Shown here piece after piece: positions 1,070-5,436 of a DNA stretch of 41,659 bases. The position numbers and the translations under genes are program-made. Within the stretch, counting starts at the first letter, position 1. The number at the start of each line of letters is the position of its first letter. Source of the stretch: a virus; IMG/VR virus record IMGVR_UViG_3300031455_000098, positions 1 through 41,659 of that record; one strand, given 5' to 3'. The notes below the pieces were generated by a model. That model worked only from the letters and a program-made list of their open reading frames with translations. It searched no databases and was not told the DNA's origin.

Positions 1070-1432
1070 TCAGTCGGCGGGGTCAAACAGGGCGCCCTGG
1101 CGCAGCGCGTAGGCGGCGGATTCGACGAGCTTGATGCGGCGGTAGGCGGTCTGGATGCAGACGCCGAAGTGCTTGGCGACGGCGACCGCGTCGCGGCCGT
1201 TGGCCAGGTAGAGCGAGAACATGTCGCGGTCGCGCTGGTCGATCTTGGCGAGCGCGTTCATCGGGATGTAGATCAGTTGACCGCCGAACTCCGAGCAGAC
1301 GTCCTGGGCGATCTGCATGCCGATCTCGGCCGCGCGCTCCTCCGGAACCGCCAGCTCGTCGCGCACAATGCGCGTGGCCACGTCGGCCAGCTCGCGGGTC
1401 AGGTTGGCGAAGCGGTCGAGGTTGGCGCTCAT
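1070..1432 (-). CDS. mor: Mor-family transcriptional activator
   Basis: A 120-residue protein of the Mor/C family, which in Mu switches on middle and late promoters by binding dyad DNA as a dimer and recruiting RNA polymerase. The N-terminal half (residues 10-60) is the helical dimerisation region. The C-terminal half contains GRDAVAVAKHFGVCIQTAYRRIK (quoted in part: AVAKHFGV, QTAYRRI), a clear helix-turn-helix at about residues 79-101. ATG at 1432 overlaps the stop of the upstream gemA-like gene by 4 bp (ATGA), so the two are translationally coupled. Its place at the end of the early operon fits a role in turning on the rightward late genes; a matching dyad element occurs at 15484 and 23212. 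Confidence 0.85.
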   Translation of the reverse strand: MSANLDRFANLTRELADVATRIVRDELAVPEERAAEIGMQIAQDVCSEFGGQLIYIPMNALAKIDQRDRDMFSLYLANGRDAVAVAKHFGVCIQTAYRRIKLVESAAYALRQGALFDPAD

Positions 1433-1911
1433 CCTGTCGCCTGCTCCTTCGCGGCGAGCTCGATGCGGGCGAGCCAGCGTTTGAGCTGCTCGATGACGGA
1501 CGAGGTCGCCTGCCGGTCCAGGTGCTGCGGGGCGATCTCGTCGCCGATGGCGCCGGGCAGATGGCCGGCGATGTAGCGGCGCAACGCCCGGTCGCTGTTG
1601 TCGTCGACGGCGCCGGCCTGGTGCAGCTGCGTCCAGAGCCAACGGATCAACGCGGCGGGCGTGCCCTTCTTGTAGGCCGTGCCGCCGGCCGTCGAAGTGT
1701 CCTTCCAACCGCAGCTGCGCAGGTGGCGCAAGACGGCCTCGCGGCCGCCGCCGTCCAAGTCCTTCGCCGAGCGGACGCGGGCGACCGACCACAGCATGTC
1801 GCGGTACGTGTCGTCTTCCAGGTGCAGCTGCGCCTTGGCGATGTGGATCTTGGCCAGATCGTTCGAGCGTTCCGGCTTGCCGTTTGCGCCGCGACGGCGA
1901 GGCGCGCTCAT
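1429..1911 (-). CDS. gemA: GemA-like regulatory protein (Mu gp16 family, DUF1018)
   Basis: 160 residues. The family signature is visible at residues 20-70: IHIAKAQLHLEDDTYRDML, then SAKDLDGGGREAVLRHLRSCGWK in part (GREAVLRHL, CGWK). In Mu this protein modulates host gene expression and is made early. The start is ATG 1911, preceded by a strong GGAGGA ribosome binding site. A longer frame upstream is ignored because it overlaps the neighbouring gene. Overlaps of 4 bp on both sides show a tightly coupled operon with mor downstream. The C-terminal half (QHLDRQATSSVIEQLKRWLA) is helical and typical of the family. Confidence 0.85.
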   Translation of the reverse strand: MSAPRRRGANGKPERSNDLAKIHIAKAQLHLEDDTYRDMLWSVARVRSAKDLDGGGREAVLRHLRSCGWKDTSTAGGTAYKKGTPAALIRWLWTQLHQAGAVDDNSDRALRRYIAGHLPGAIGDEIAPQHLDRQATSSVIEQLKRWLARIELAAKEQATG

Positions 1912-2171
1912 TGCTCCTCCCAACCCTGTGCGAGAAGCTGCTCGGCCTTCGGCAGCAGCGCATCGCTGTCGGGCTCCACGATAAACACGTCGATCTCGTT
2001 TGGCTTGGAGCAGTCCCATAGGACCTCCGCGACGGGATGATGATCGCCGTGCTCGTGGAACTTGAGCGCCATTCCAGGATGAGGGATGAAAGGCAGCGTC
2101 GTGCGCAGGGCGAGATCCAACGCTGGGCCATCATCCCCTGGCGAAGCAACGCAGTAGATGGTTGCTTTCAC
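1908..2171 (-). CDS. Hypothetical early phage protein, 87 aa
   Basis: Not recognised. A compact alpha/beta-looking protein starting MKATIYCVASPGDDGPALDL and ending PKAEQLLAQGWEEQ. There are no obvious metal-binding or DNA-binding motifs and no membrane segment. It is joined to its neighbours by 4-bp overlaps at both ends (start with the 2168 gene, stop with gemA). Base composition is somewhat richer in A/T at third positions than the transposase region, as for the next several genes, which may mark a more recently exchanged segment. Confidence 0.7.
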   Translation of the reverse strand: MKATIYCVASPGDDGPALDLALRTTLPFIPHPGMALKFHEHGDHHPVAEVLWDCSKPNEIDVFIVEPDSDALLPKAEQLLAQGWEEQ

Positions 2172-2449
2172 GGATTCCGCTCCTGGCCTTCATAGCCAGG
2201 CGCCGGGAGCGCCTTCCCATTCTCGATGAAATCGGACTTCACCCCATTCAGGCGCGGCGCGTTGATTCGGACTTTGAGGAAGTCGACCTCGACACGCGCA
2301 GAGTCGATGATGGTCTTCGCGACATCGCTCATCGCTTTCGCCCGCGTGATCTCGCGTTCGAGGCCACCGTCCTTTACCACGTCGTCGTCGCTCAAGCGTT
2401 CAAGCTGCTCGAACAGATGGTTCCGAAGGTCTTCAATCTTGTTTTTCAT
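2168..2449 (-). CDS. Hypothetical phage protein, helical, 93 aa
   Basis: Begins MKNKIEDLRNHLFEQLERL, then REITRAKAMSDVAKTIIDSA and ARVEVDFLKV. This pattern (short N-terminal helix, then an AKA..DVA..II.SA.VEVDF helix) is one I know from conserved small early proteins of many temperate phages; no function is established. It contains a high proportion of charged helix, and a dimeric helical bundle is likely. The start is ATG 2449, inside the end of the upstream HNH-like gene (17-bp overlap). The stop overlaps the start of the 1908 gene. Confidence 0.75.
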   Translation of the reverse strand: MKNKIEDLRNHLFEQLERLSDDDVVKDGGLEREITRAKAMSDVAKTIIDSARVEVDFLKVRINAPRLNGVKSDFIENGKALPAPGYEGQERNP

Positions 2450-3146
2450 GGGTCCCCTTTTCGAGTCCTCGGATCTTGCGATTGAGCGCGCTGCGCAGCT
2501 GGATCAGCTGTGGCAGCGGCGCTGGCAGGTTGTGCACGGTGTTGCGTCGCATGTTCTCTCGGAGCGACACCAGCTCGATTCGATCGATCGTGATCTCCGA
2601 CGCGATGAACGTCTTCCTGCCTGGGCGAAAAACGACGATGTGGCCGGGCGGCACGACGCCGTGAGCGGACTCCCAGACCAAGACGTGGACAGGTCGCCAA
2701 CGCATCACGGGAAAGATCGAAGGATCGTCTGTGATCTTGCGCATCAACACGCGGCGCTTAGGGTGGACCTTCTCGGTACCGATCGGCACATAGTTGCGCG
2801 CCTCGCTCGCGGGACGCCCCTTCTTGAATTGCGTTGCTGCCATACGACCTGGCGCCCAGCCGGGGCGACGCAACCCTTTGTTCGCCGGCACGTTGCCCTT
2901 TGGGAATCGATAGGCGGCGCCGACGTTGTCACCGCGACGCAGCCGGCATGCCTCCGGCGAAGCCAGATACGCGTCCGTCTTTTTCAGCCCGAGCCGCTTC
3001 GCGCCGCCGGCGACGACACACTCCCGTAGCTCCATCGCGGCAGCGATGATCCGCGTAGGGATGTGGGGGTAGAACTCGCGCAGCACGATCAGCTCGGCCG
3101 CATCCCACCTGTGACGAGGAGCAAGGATTCCGCGAGACTTGGTCAT
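2433..3146 (-). CDS. HNH-like endonuclease, phage family
   Basis: A 237-residue protein. The N-terminal 50 residues (RHRWDAAELIVLREFYPHIP, TRIIAAAMELRE) form a Myb-like helical DNA-binding region; the centre is basic and glycine-rich (ANKGLRRPGWAPGRM). At about 160-185 lies an HNH-like core, HVLVWESAHGVVPPGHIVVF, followed by helical C-terminus. The His of the family is present (HVLVW, PPGHIVVF), but the second Asn/His pair is not obvious, so nuclease activity is uncertain. The first 49 codons are duplicated at 4140-4290. ATG 3146 overlaps the stop of the upstream 39-codon ORF. Probable role is an early or packaging-related nuclease. Confidence 0.7.
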   Translation of the reverse strand: MTKSRGILAPRHRWDAAELIVLREFYPHIPTRIIAAAMELRECVVAGGAKRLGLKKTDAYLASPEACRLRRGDNVGAAYRFPKGNVPANKGLRRPGWAPGRMAATQFKKGRPASEARNYVPIGTEKVHPKRRVLMRKITDDPSIFPVMRWRPVHVLVWESAHGVVPPGHIVVFRPGRKTFIASEITIDRIELVSLRENMRRNTVHNLPAPLPQLIQLRSALNRKIRGLEKGTHEKQD

Positions 3147-3186
3147 GGGCGCGCCTTCCGGGCCCGAGGCCGCGAGTACCAGTGCA
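2996..3186. repeat. Direct repeat copy 1 (191 bp)
   Basis: Identical to 4140-4330 except for one base (T at 3027, A at 4171). It spans the last 14 codons of the upstream gene and the first 50 codons of the HNH-like gene. The offset between copies is 1144 bp, and the copies bracket the NADAR cassette. Confidence 0.95.
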
Positions 3187-3262
3187 GAACGTCCTCGCGC
3201 ATTGCCCCCGCATACGTCTCGGGCAGCTTATCGAGTTCGGACTGATAGCGAGTCGTAGGCAT
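3143..3262 (-). CDS. Small chimeric ORF, 39 aa
   Basis: Starts MPTTRYQSELDKLPETYAGA and ends with WYSRPRARKARP. The last 14 residues, together with the stop that overlaps the HNH start (ATGA), lie inside the 191-bp repeat and are the same as the C-terminus of the gene at 4287-4538. So this ORF looks like a foreign 5' portion joined to the duplicated 3' end of that gene. AGGAC about 15 bases upstream of ATG 3262 is a weak ribosome binding site. It may be functional, or simply a scar of the cassette insertion. Confidence 0.5.
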   Translation of the reverse strand: MPTTRYQSELDKLPETYAGAMREDVLHWYSRPRARKARP

Positions 3263-3281
3263 CGTACGCGCGCAGGTCCTA

Positions 3282-3866
3282 CTAGGCAGCCACGCGAATC
3301 GATTCGCGGATGGCTGGTCTGCTCACTTGCTTGGCCTTCTTTGTGCTGGCCTTTGCCGATGATTCGTCCTGCGCTCTGATCTCGTCGCGGACCTCCATCA
3401 GCAGCACTCCCAGCATGTTTTGTCCCTTTCCGTTCACTTCGCCCCACGTCCGGTTGACGGCATTGTCGGTGCGTCCTGCCTCCACCAGCCGTGCGTCGCC
3501 CGTCGAGAGGAGCAGCTGCTTGAGATCCTCGTGCTGGTTGAACTTGGCGCTCAGCACCTTGCGCATCCTGTCGAACTTGGTTCGCGACCACTCGGGGACG
3601 ATATCCCAGGTGTAGAGACCGTGCGCCGCCATTGCGACCAGCGACGGCGTGGGCGCACTGAGGATCCATTCGCGCACTTCATCCTTTCTCGCCTTACCGG
3701 CCTGATAGGCGTGCTCCGCGGTTGGATACACGCGGCCTTCGAACTCCATCGGGCGTCGGAAGAGATTGCTGAAGGCGCCGAAGGGCTTTTCGTTCGACCT
3801 GTAGAACGGAATATCAGCCTTCTTGACCGACTTGGCGGGCTTCCGAGTCGCGGTGTTTTTCTTCAT
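3282..3866 (-). CDS. NADAR-family (YbiA/DUF1768-like) protein
   Basis: A 194-residue protein with the full NADAR pattern: FYRSNEKPFGAFSNLFRRPM near 21-40, PTAEHAYQAGKAR near 48-60, DRMRKVLSAKFNQ near 99-111, LKQLLLSTGDARLVEA near 115-130, and WGEVNGKGQNMLGVLLMEVR in the 141-160 stretch. The Lys-rich N-terminus (1-18) and C-terminal tail (168-194) are extensions. Family members act on ADP-ribose-type or riboflavin-pathway N-glycosides; some remove ADP-ribose from guanine in DNA and serve as antitoxins to DarT-like toxins. In a phage this suggests defence against host ADP-ribosylation; that is inference. ATG 3866 overlaps the preceding stop (ATGA). A longer in-frame upstream extension reads through another gene remnant and is not used. 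No toxin partner is visible. Confidence 0.85.
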   Translation of the reverse strand: MKKNTATRKPAKSVKKADIPFYRSNEKPFGAFSNLFRRPMEFEGRVYPTAEHAYQAGKARKDEVREWILSAPTPSLVAMAAHGLYTWDIVPEWSRTKFDRMRKVLSAKFNQHEDLKQLLLSTGDARLVEAGRTDNAVNRTWGEVNGKGQNMLGVLLMEVRDEIRAQDESSAKASTKKAKQVSRPAIRESIRVAA

Positions 3867-4139
3867 GGGCTGGTCTCCTGGTTGGCAGCTGGAATGGGGA
3901 TGTCGTGGGACTTGCAGTGATTGAGGATCAGGACCTCGATCAGGTTCACGATCGGCCCACGATGACCGACCGCCCTTCGTGAGATCCCGGCCGGCAGACG
4001 TGCCCGCGTTCGGATGCTTCGACTCGACGGCGGCTTTCAGCGCTGCGTCGCGACCATCTGGCAAGACGGCCTGGCCGAACTGAGAGGAAATTGCTTGCAC
4101 CCATCCGATCGCGAACGCTTCGCCTCGTGCGACCTTGTT
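3863..4139 (-). pseudogene. Gene remnant upstream of the NADAR gene
   Basis: Two protein-like segments sit in different frames. Residues such as EAFAIGWVQAISSQFGQAV and LPDGRDAALK are read in one frame (about 4037-4139). A second frame, ending at TGA 3863 and overlapping the NADAR ATG, reads GPIVNLIEVLILNHCKSHDI then PIPAANQETSP. No start codon serves the second frame. The simplest reading is the 3' part of a small phage gene that lost its 5' end when recombination fused it to the HNH repeat, and which may also carry a frameshift. I do not recognise the parent gene. Confidence 0.45.
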
Positions 4140-4290
4140 GCTTCGCGCCGCCGGCGACGACACACTCCCGAAGCTCCATCGCGGCAGCGATGATCCGCGT
4201 AGGGATGTGGGGGTAGAACTCGCGCAGCACGATCAGCTCGGCCGCATCCCACCTGTGACGAGGAGCAAGGATTCCGCGAGACTTGGTCAT
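4140..4290 (-). pseudogene. Truncated 5' copy of the HNH-like gene
   Basis: The first 49-50 codons are identical in protein to the intact gene at 2433-3146, up to CVVAGGAK. After that the frame runs into unrelated sequence and ends without any HNH core. ATG 4290 still overlaps the stop of the upstream gene, so translation initiation is probably retained, but the product would be a short N-terminal DNA-binding fragment with an arginine-rich junk tail. It arose as part of the 191-bp duplication. Confidence 0.8.
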
Positions 4291-4330
4291 GGGCGCGCCT
4301 TCCGGGCCCGAGGCCGCGAGTACCAGTGCA
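4140..4330. repeat. Direct repeat copy 2 (191 bp)
   Basis: Partner of 2996-3186, 190 of 191 bases the same. It includes the end of the 4287-4538 gene and the truncated HNH start. Near-identity shows the duplication is recent compared with ordinary phage gene divergence. Confidence 0.95.
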
Positions 4331-4538
4331 CCTCGTCCATGTCCGCCTCAAGCGCCCTCGCGTGACCACGTAGAACAGAAGCTGCGTCATCCAGCTTGCG
4401 CTCCAGGAACCCGTCAACGTCTCCCCACCAGCCGCCTGCCTCGCGGAGTGATTCCGCGGCGGCGGCCAACTTCTTCACCGCGGCACGTGAAAATCTCAGA
4501 GCGGTGAGTACCTCGGGATCGAGCTTGGCCGGCTTCAC
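4287..4538 (-). CDS. Hypothetical early protein, 83 aa
   Basis: GTG start at 4538 with a GGGAGG ribosome binding site; a longer frame upstream is rejected because it is arginine-rich shadow. The protein begins MKPAKLDPEVLTALRFSRAA, has a helical alanine-rich core (AVKKLAAAAESLREAG) and GWWGDVDGFLERKLDDAASV, and ends HWYSRPRARKARP. The basic C-terminus suggests nucleic-acid contact, but no family is recognised. Its stop overlaps the start of the truncated HNH copy; originally it would have preceded the intact HNH gene directly, so the cassette split a two-gene unit. Confidence 0.7.
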   Translation of the reverse strand: MKPAKLDPEVLTALRFSRAAVKKLAAAAESLREAGGWWGDVDGFLERKLDDAASVLRGHARALEADMDEVHWYSRPRARKARP

Positions 4539-4918
4539 GGCACACCTCCCGGCGGCGTGAGCATCGTGAGGCATTGGCGGTTGGCGCCCACGACCGCCAG
4601 GCCGCGGGCCAGCAGCCAGTCGACAGCGCGGCGGATGTGGCCCGCGGCCTGGTCGAGGGTCTCGGTCTCCGCGCCGTTCTCGCCGACGAACGTGTAGACG
4701 CCCATGCCGCGGTGATACACGCATTCGCGCTCGACGATTTCGGTCATGCTCTCGTCGGTGAACGCGAGCGCACGCTGCGTGATCGCCTCCTGGGCCCGGT
4801 ACGCGAGGATGGCGTTTCGCGCGAGCATCTGATCGCCATCCGTCGCGCGGCCGACCATGAGCCGGTCCAGCGTGCCCTCGGGCAGTTCGGTGATTTCTGC
4901 CGTGCGGCGCTGGTTCAC
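4535..4918 (-). CDS. Hypothetical early protein, 127 aa
   Basis: Not recognised. It starts MNQRRTAEITELPEGTLDRL; the middle is helical (DGDQMLARNAILAYRAQEAI), and the end has a likely small helical domain (TLDQAAGHIRRAVDWLLARG) and a hydrophobic strand LAVVGANRQCLTML. There are no cysteine clusters or membrane segments. It overlaps both neighbours by 4 bp (GTGA and ATGA type), so it is an integral member of the early operon between the Gam-like and the 83-aa gene. Confidence 0.7.
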   Translation of the reverse strand: MNQRRTAEITELPEGTLDRLMVGRATDGDQMLARNAILAYRAQEAITQRALAFTDESMTEIVERECVYHRGMGVYTFVGENGAETETLDQAAGHIRRAVDWLLARGLAVVGANRQCLTMLTPPGGVP

Positions 4919-5436
4919 GTGACGTCCTCCAGATCCTTGTCGTTGACCAGGGCGTCGATGAGCTTGTCCAGGTCGCTGTCGGCGGCCTTGATCACGACCG
5001 CGTCGATATCGTCGGATAGGGTCACGCCGAGGCGCTTGAGATCCTTCGCTGGCAGGTTGGCCAGCGCGGTCATGACCGGTTTCTCGGTGACCTTGATGTA
5101 GCCGACTGCCTCCTCGCCGAGCATCTTGCGGATGCGATCGACGATCCCGTCCGGATCGCCAACTTCCAGCTTGCCTCGCTGTTTCATCCAGCCCACGCGG
5201 ATGCCGTGCATGACGCGGGTCTTTGGGTTGTCGAACAGATCCTTTCCGGCCTGGACCGCCGTCTTCAGTTCGTCGTGCGCCGACTGAACGCGGCCGAGCG
5301 CGTTCTTGATGCCCTGCAGGCGCCGACGCTTCGCGTCCTCCTGCTCCTTGCGCAAGGTCTCCAGGCGCTCGGCGAGTTCCGCACGCGCGGCGGCGAATAC
5401 TTTGGTGAGGCTTTCGATCTGGGTCATGGTGCTCAT
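4915..5436 (-). CDS. Gam-like host-nuclease inhibitor (DNA end protector)
   Basis: 173 residues: a long N-terminal coiled coil (15-65, AARAELAERLETLRKEQEDA), then a compact domain with VGWMKQRGKLEVGDPDGIVD, EEAVGYIKVTEKPVMTALAN, and a C-terminal LKRLGVTLSDDIDAVVIK strand region. The order (coiled coil, V.W strand, D..IV helix, K..L helix, lkrLGV..) matches Mu Gam family proteins, which bind linear DNA ends, resist RecBCD and resemble Ku. The match is by pattern only. ATG 5436 is preceded by GAGGAAA. The early-operon location fits protection of transposing or incoming phage DNA. Confidence 0.65.
   Translation of the reverse strand: MSTMTQIESLTKVFAAARAELAERLETLRKEQEDAKRRRLQGIKNALGRVQSAHDELKTAVQAGKDLFDNPKTRVMHGIRVGWMKQRGKLEVGDPDGIVDRIRKMLGEEAVGYIKVTEKPVMTALANLPAKDLKRLGVTLSDDIDAVVIKAADSDLDKLIDALVNDKDLEDVT

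Follow-up and report, generated by a model that had tools for sequence, protein, structure and literature searches.

A Mu-like phage carries, between its Gam and GemA genes, an intact NADAR gene that is collinear with part of a bacterial operon and is bracketed by two nearly identical copies of a phage gene junction. The window, by which we mean the whole stretch of DNA that was analyzed, is a virus record of 41,659 bases. Its matches to transposase (phrog_310), MuB-type transposition ATPase (phrog_296), Gam, GemA, and Mor identify it as a Mu-like phage, and gene-family matches place the early genes on the minus strand. We lean toward the view that the arrangement records the capture of an accessory gene in the Gam–GemA slot, through a two-step illegitimate history that would have left an expressed, protective NADAR gene, which recombination between the repeats could remove again.

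The repeated junction and its insert

In the reading direction, the region runs from Gam through a 127-aa gene and an 83-aa gene to a truncated HNH gene (from 4290) and the insert, after which come an intact HNH gene, phrog_2044, and GemA. The features are as follows:

4915–5436, minus strand: Mu Gam-like gene (phrog_491, E 2e-13; 51–67% amino acid identity in sister phages), left edge of the variable slot
4287–4538, minus strand: complete 83-aa gene, no family found
4140–4330, minus strand: upstream repeat copy R1, holding the 3' end of the complete 83-aa gene and the HNH start
3946–4290, minus strand: truncated HNH, 50 N-terminal codons followed by out-of-frame sequence (translation, alignment)
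3945–4139, minus strand: 3' scrap of a DUF7168 (phrog_421-type) phage gene (PF23771, E 0.004; phrog_421, E 9e-4)
3866–3944, minus strand: final codons of a ribbon-helix-helix-like (RHH) gene whose 5' part is absent (blastn and tblastn)
3282–3866, minus strand: intact NADAR gene, 194 aa (PF08719, E 2e-28; TIGR02464 above cut-off)
3143–3262, minus strand: 39-codon chimera, in which the first 25 SIS/HAD codons run into the final codons of the 83-aa gene
2996–3186, minus strand: downstream repeat copy R2, holding the 3' end of the 83-aa gene and the first 50 HNH codons, and running into the intact HNH gene
2433–3146, minus strand: intact HNH gene, 237 aa (phrog_1891, E 2e-35), whose start codon (ATG) overlaps the stop codon of the frame before it
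1429–2019, minus strand: GemA gene (PF06252, E 1e-22), right edge of the variable slot

A sequence-only reading of this DNA had described a direct repeat with 190 of 191 positions identical and an offset of 1144 bp, and the two copies indeed lie at 2996–3186 and 4140–4330. Their sole mismatch, T3027 versus A4171, is synonymous in HNH, and the longest exact stretch common to both is 159 bp. The repeat is the top self-match in the window, with an E-value of 2e-94 versus 5e-13 for the next best (about 80 orders of magnitude). As that reading had proposed, both copies span one gene junction, each comprising the end of the 83-aa gene, an overlapping stop and start, and 50 HNH codons; one HNH copy is whole, and the other, starting at 4290, is cut after these 50 codons. 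All of the frames it had named (83-aa, NADAR, 39-codon, and both HNH copies) are present. With a single difference in 191 positions, compared with roughly 70–76% DNA identity to the nearest HNH genes, the repeats are by this measure much younger than any sampled split. The truncated HNH frame retains the N-terminal, putatively DNA-binding part without the nuclease and could yield a 114-aa product. PHROGs labels the small gene at 2168–2449 (phrog_2044) as "RNA polymerase beta subunit," a label that is probably wrong, because the gene comes after HNH in most relatives.

The insert consists of two parts, a DUF7168 scrap (4139 to about 3945) and a block collinear with a bacterial operon (about 3944 to 3188). 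A gene remnant had been reported between the repeats, and such material is present, but it comprises two remnants of different origin, the 3' piece of a DUF7168 gene and the 3' end of an RHH gene. The PF23771 match of the DUF7168 scrap is weak, lying below the curated cut-off and covering only the C-terminal part; in pairwise alignment, the match to the full-length gene of the Mu-like prophage L075 is clear (52–53% amino acid identity, E 2e-17).

Beyond this scrap, the window is collinear with the operon of two genomes of the Xanthomonadales, the order of Stenotrophomonas (L048 and L049), at 75–76% nucleotide identity over about 570 bp. The DNA match starts within their small RHH-like gene (at 3944 for L048 and 3940 for L049) and spans NADAR; the tblastn match of the RHH protein ends at 3866, and protein similarity picks up again where the 650-aa SIS/HAD gene begins. 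The predicted presence of a NADAR gene between the repeats is confirmed by the PF08719 match, and the 39-codon chimera is likewise real, with the start of the SIS/HAD gene joined to the 83-aa gene's end. The SIS/HAD protein of L069 matches residues 1–25 at 76% (3262–3188), the 83-aa gene matches 3193–3146, and in L048 and L049 this SIS/HAD start lies directly downstream of NADAR. GC content is 0.60 in the NADAR block versus 0.664 for the window.

The variable slot in related phages and the donor operon

Related phages (L075 and L077–L081) have core early genes in common with the window, at roughly 63–80% nucleotide identity, and the content of the Gam–GemA slot varies from one to the next. L078 carries HNH and phrog_2044 behind a 119-aa gene, L075 has a DUF7168 gene between Gam and GemA, L081 has a DUF7168 gene too (with no Gam or GemA match in the stretch covered), and L079 and L080 hold other genes in the slot. 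The order HNH–phrog_2044 recurs in most relatives, the closer HNH proteins being 41–62% identical. None of 47 related HNH loci, 42 of which have at least 900 bp of upstream sequence, has a NADAR gene or a second HNH start (the three HNH matches in L023 are fragments of a single HNH gene). Being absent from these loci, the duplicated arrangement is neither ancestral nor widespread in this sample, so the comparison does not bear out the ancestral, widespread duplication that would have refuted the sequence-only reading. An uninterrupted 83-aa/HNH junction, for which the sequence-only reading had suggested a search, was not found in the relatives: HNH is uninterrupted in L078 but lies behind a different gene, and the 83-aa gene has a single weak match (36%, L027) with no HNH adjoining.

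Megablast returned no near-identical relative in phage records, and a 30-mer from the repeat had no exact match in IMG/VR; in both cases the records nearest the window may be outside the search. Single-sequence searches of IMG/VR with NADAR, Gam, and the DUF7168 scrap returned no relative, and tblastx of the insert against the relatives gave composition noise only. In the Mu-like relatives L002, L003, L004, and L019, a protein type of about 215 aa with an RPILFNG-MVRAILAG-KTQTRR motif, ASCH-like by eye, lies upstream of HNH.

The operon to which the NADAR block corresponds is intact in two Xanthomonadales genomes, with the order RHH–NADAR–SIS/HAD–PRTase–ORC/CDC6–CARF6, and in L068, L069, and L070 all of these genes run in one direction. 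The same partners occur with NADAR at the other end in L072, L073, and L074, and are accompanied by a PfkB-type kinase on Paraburkholderia, Bosea, and Sinorhizobium plasmids. Across the loci sampled (L068, L069, L070, L072–L074, L085, L087, and L095–L097), a conserved operon of the form RHH or HTH–NADAR–(PfkB kinase)–SIS/HAD–PRTase-CE–ORC/CDC6-like–CARF6 is found on chromosomes, plasmids, and two viral contigs. Its families include HAD-IIB (TIGR01484), PRTase-CE (PF24390), ORC-CDC6-like (PF24389, in the L068 copy), and CARF6 (PADLOC, E 7e-113); PADLOC recognizes single parts of the operon only. On the S. meliloti plasmid pRRI128_5 (L097), NADAR lies between two PRTase/ORC-like/CARF6-like sets (L097:3352–7485 and L097:9418–15529). 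From the family names and the presence on plasmids and viral contigs (L085 and L087), we infer that the operon is a candidate conflict or immune system; no paper on the whole PRTase/ORC/CARF6/NADAR operon was found in the literature searched. The window itself contains NADAR as the sole whole gene of this operon, with no SIS/HAD, PRTase, ORC, or CARF6 gene elsewhere and only the RHH and SIS/HAD scraps.

Origin of the arrangement

The collinear operon match, the lower GC content, and the absence from the 47 related HNH loci argue that the NADAR block is a foreign cassette. Insertion by a transposon or IS element was rejected, the insert having neither a transposase nor terminal inverted repeats and a 191-bp duplication being far too long. 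The sequence-only reading had likewise seen a gained cassette, and had attributed it to homologous insertion or unequal exchange. Homologous insertion is not supported as the origin, because all three joints (about 4139/4140, 3944, and 3187) fall within genes, and alignment with the donors reveals no extended homology at them. The joints look illegitimate, and unequal exchange is possible in the form of an illegitimate crossover between sibling phages.

The two-step history that we favor, and consider the simplest, is suggested by the position of the DUF7168 scrap, a gene native to the slot in sister phages, directly before the operon piece. First, a sibling phage would have gained the NADAR piece next to its own DUF7168 gene by illegitimate recombination. 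Second, one phage would have crossed over illegitimately at its HNH codon 50 with the DUF7168 gene of this sibling, giving the present genome with two copies of the junction region. Finally, recombination between the repeats would delete the insert and restore both genes; clean excision of this kind had been proposed from the sequence, and when the flanks are joined in silico, the 83-aa gene and the HNH gene are indeed both whole again. The searches turned up no sibling phage carrying either half of this history.

A single break-repair or template-switch event in one phage genome would dispense with the sibling phage, whose HNH start must otherwise be 99.5% identical. Replication would exit at HNH codon 50, copy the DUF7168 gene of another phage and then the operon piece, and return 191 bp upstream of the exit, duplicating the junction, so that one event would account for all three illegitimate joints as well as for the near-identical duplication on the flanks. 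However, two different foreign templates are then required in one event, and this history gives no reason for one of the templates being a gene that sister phages natively carry in the slot. We regard this alternative as possible but doubtful. Much less probable is a Campbell-type homologous integration of a circle bearing the repeat and the cassette, which is the form that homologous insertion would take. It would yield the order repeat–cassette–repeat exactly, and the excised product is such a circle, but cassette and repeat must already have been joined at both ends, which explains re-insertion and not origin. An assembly error is also unlikely as the source of the repeat arrangement, and we give scarcely any weight to an assembler having passed the repeat twice and joined two phage variants of one sample: the record is of metagenome type and the 159-bp exact stretch is near short-read length, but the single mismatch and both outer junctions tell the copies apart, and any account requires a molecule in which the cassette has a repeat on both sides.

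The NADAR protein and its possible use

The window NADAR matches PF08719 with 100 bits versus a cut-off of 35.1, and E. coli YbiA (2b3w) with an E-value of 2e-23. It keeps E51, K58, and E129, which are invariant in the NADAR alignment and correspond by alignment to the catalytic E43, K50, and E125 of Phytophthora NADAR (PMC11543638). This correspondence places the protein in the YbiA family, in which the last-strand catalytic residue is Glu, as it is here, and not Asp or His. The closest NADARs are bacterial, being 73–76% identical in the Xanthomonadales loci L048 and L049 and about 70% identical on Rhizobiales and Paraburkholderia plasmids; an origin solely from phage NADARs was rejected, the copies in isolated phages being less than 47% identical. 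In the NADAR tree, the window sequence groups with L068 and L069 (support 92/85, not starred). Compared with two operon copies, dN/dS is 0.09–0.16, a value that spans the whole phage–chromosome divergence and is no proof of selection after capture. The match to the NCBIfam model of the anti-phage NADAR DS32_2 reaches 64 bits, below the cut-off of 240. Nor does the gene form a DarT–NADAR or YarT–YbiA pair: its neighbors are the RHH scrap, the SIS/HAD scrap, and phage early genes, with no ADP-ribosyltransferase gene. Stand-alone NADARs of the same clade occur in five unrelated viral contigs (L086 and L088–L091), with no operon partners within about 5 kb. These are instances of repeated recruitment by phages.

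We hypothesize that NADAR is expressed with the early operon and either strips ADP-ribose from nucleic acid or hydrolyzes an ADP-ribose-type signal, an activity that would shield the phage from host immune enzymes. Expression of the cassette is an assumption, because a simple consensus scan found no promoter-like site nearby; the scan also found no terminator-like site on the coding strand. YbiA-family and phage NADARs hydrolyze guanine-linked ADP-ribose in vitro, and YbiA-type and phage NADARs failed to rescue cells from DarT1 (PMC11125620), so that activity against any particular toxin cannot be taken for granted. A role in countering ADP-ribose-based immunity has been put forward for phage NADARs (PMC9503650). 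The most likely use here would be protection of the phage against host ADP-ribosylating or ADP-ribose-signaling enzymes, possibly those of the donor operon, a role supported by the stand-alone viral NADARs of the same clade, the low dN/dS, and the early-operon position. A further proposal, that a NADAR taken from a host immune operon is used by itself to neutralize that operon and that the repeats make it a switchable cargo, lost or kept across the phage population, strikes us as rather unlikely.

The arrangement resembles the morons in regions of genomic plasticity of Pseudomonas Mu-like phages (PMC4378225), which are likewise short genes of foreign origin that occupy fixed variable slots among the core genes, with contents that differ per phage and GC content below that of the phage; some of these accessory genes act against host immunity (PMC4378225). 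As expected of a moron, the window NADAR is a foreign gene between core genes, absent from the 47 HNH loci, in a slot where sister phages hold other contents, although the consensus scan gives it neither a promoter nor a terminator of its own. What sets the window apart from the Pseudomonas cases is that its donor operon is known, that the insert still shows both of its cut edges, and that the target region is present in duplicate. The fold family and the E/K/E catalytic set are common to the YbiA-type guanine-ADP-ribose hydrolases (PMC11543638; PMC11125620), but in contrast to those enzymes the window NADAR has no adjoining ART toxin and groups with NADARs of PRTase/CARF6 operons. The phage NADARs proposed to act against NAD+/ADP-ribose immunity also stand alone among early genes (PMC9503650); large myophages often carry them and small ones seldom do, whereas the window NADAR, at 73–74% identity, is far closer to the copies in bacterial operons than to those of isolated phages.

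As a rule, cargo genes in phages no longer show how they were captured. In this window, we can put a name to the donor operon and locate the cut points within three genes, which makes it possible to trace the path from a bacterial conflict operon into the early region of a phage. If NADAR blocks its donor operon, it would offer a direct handle on a candidate immune system and on the antidote part of that system.
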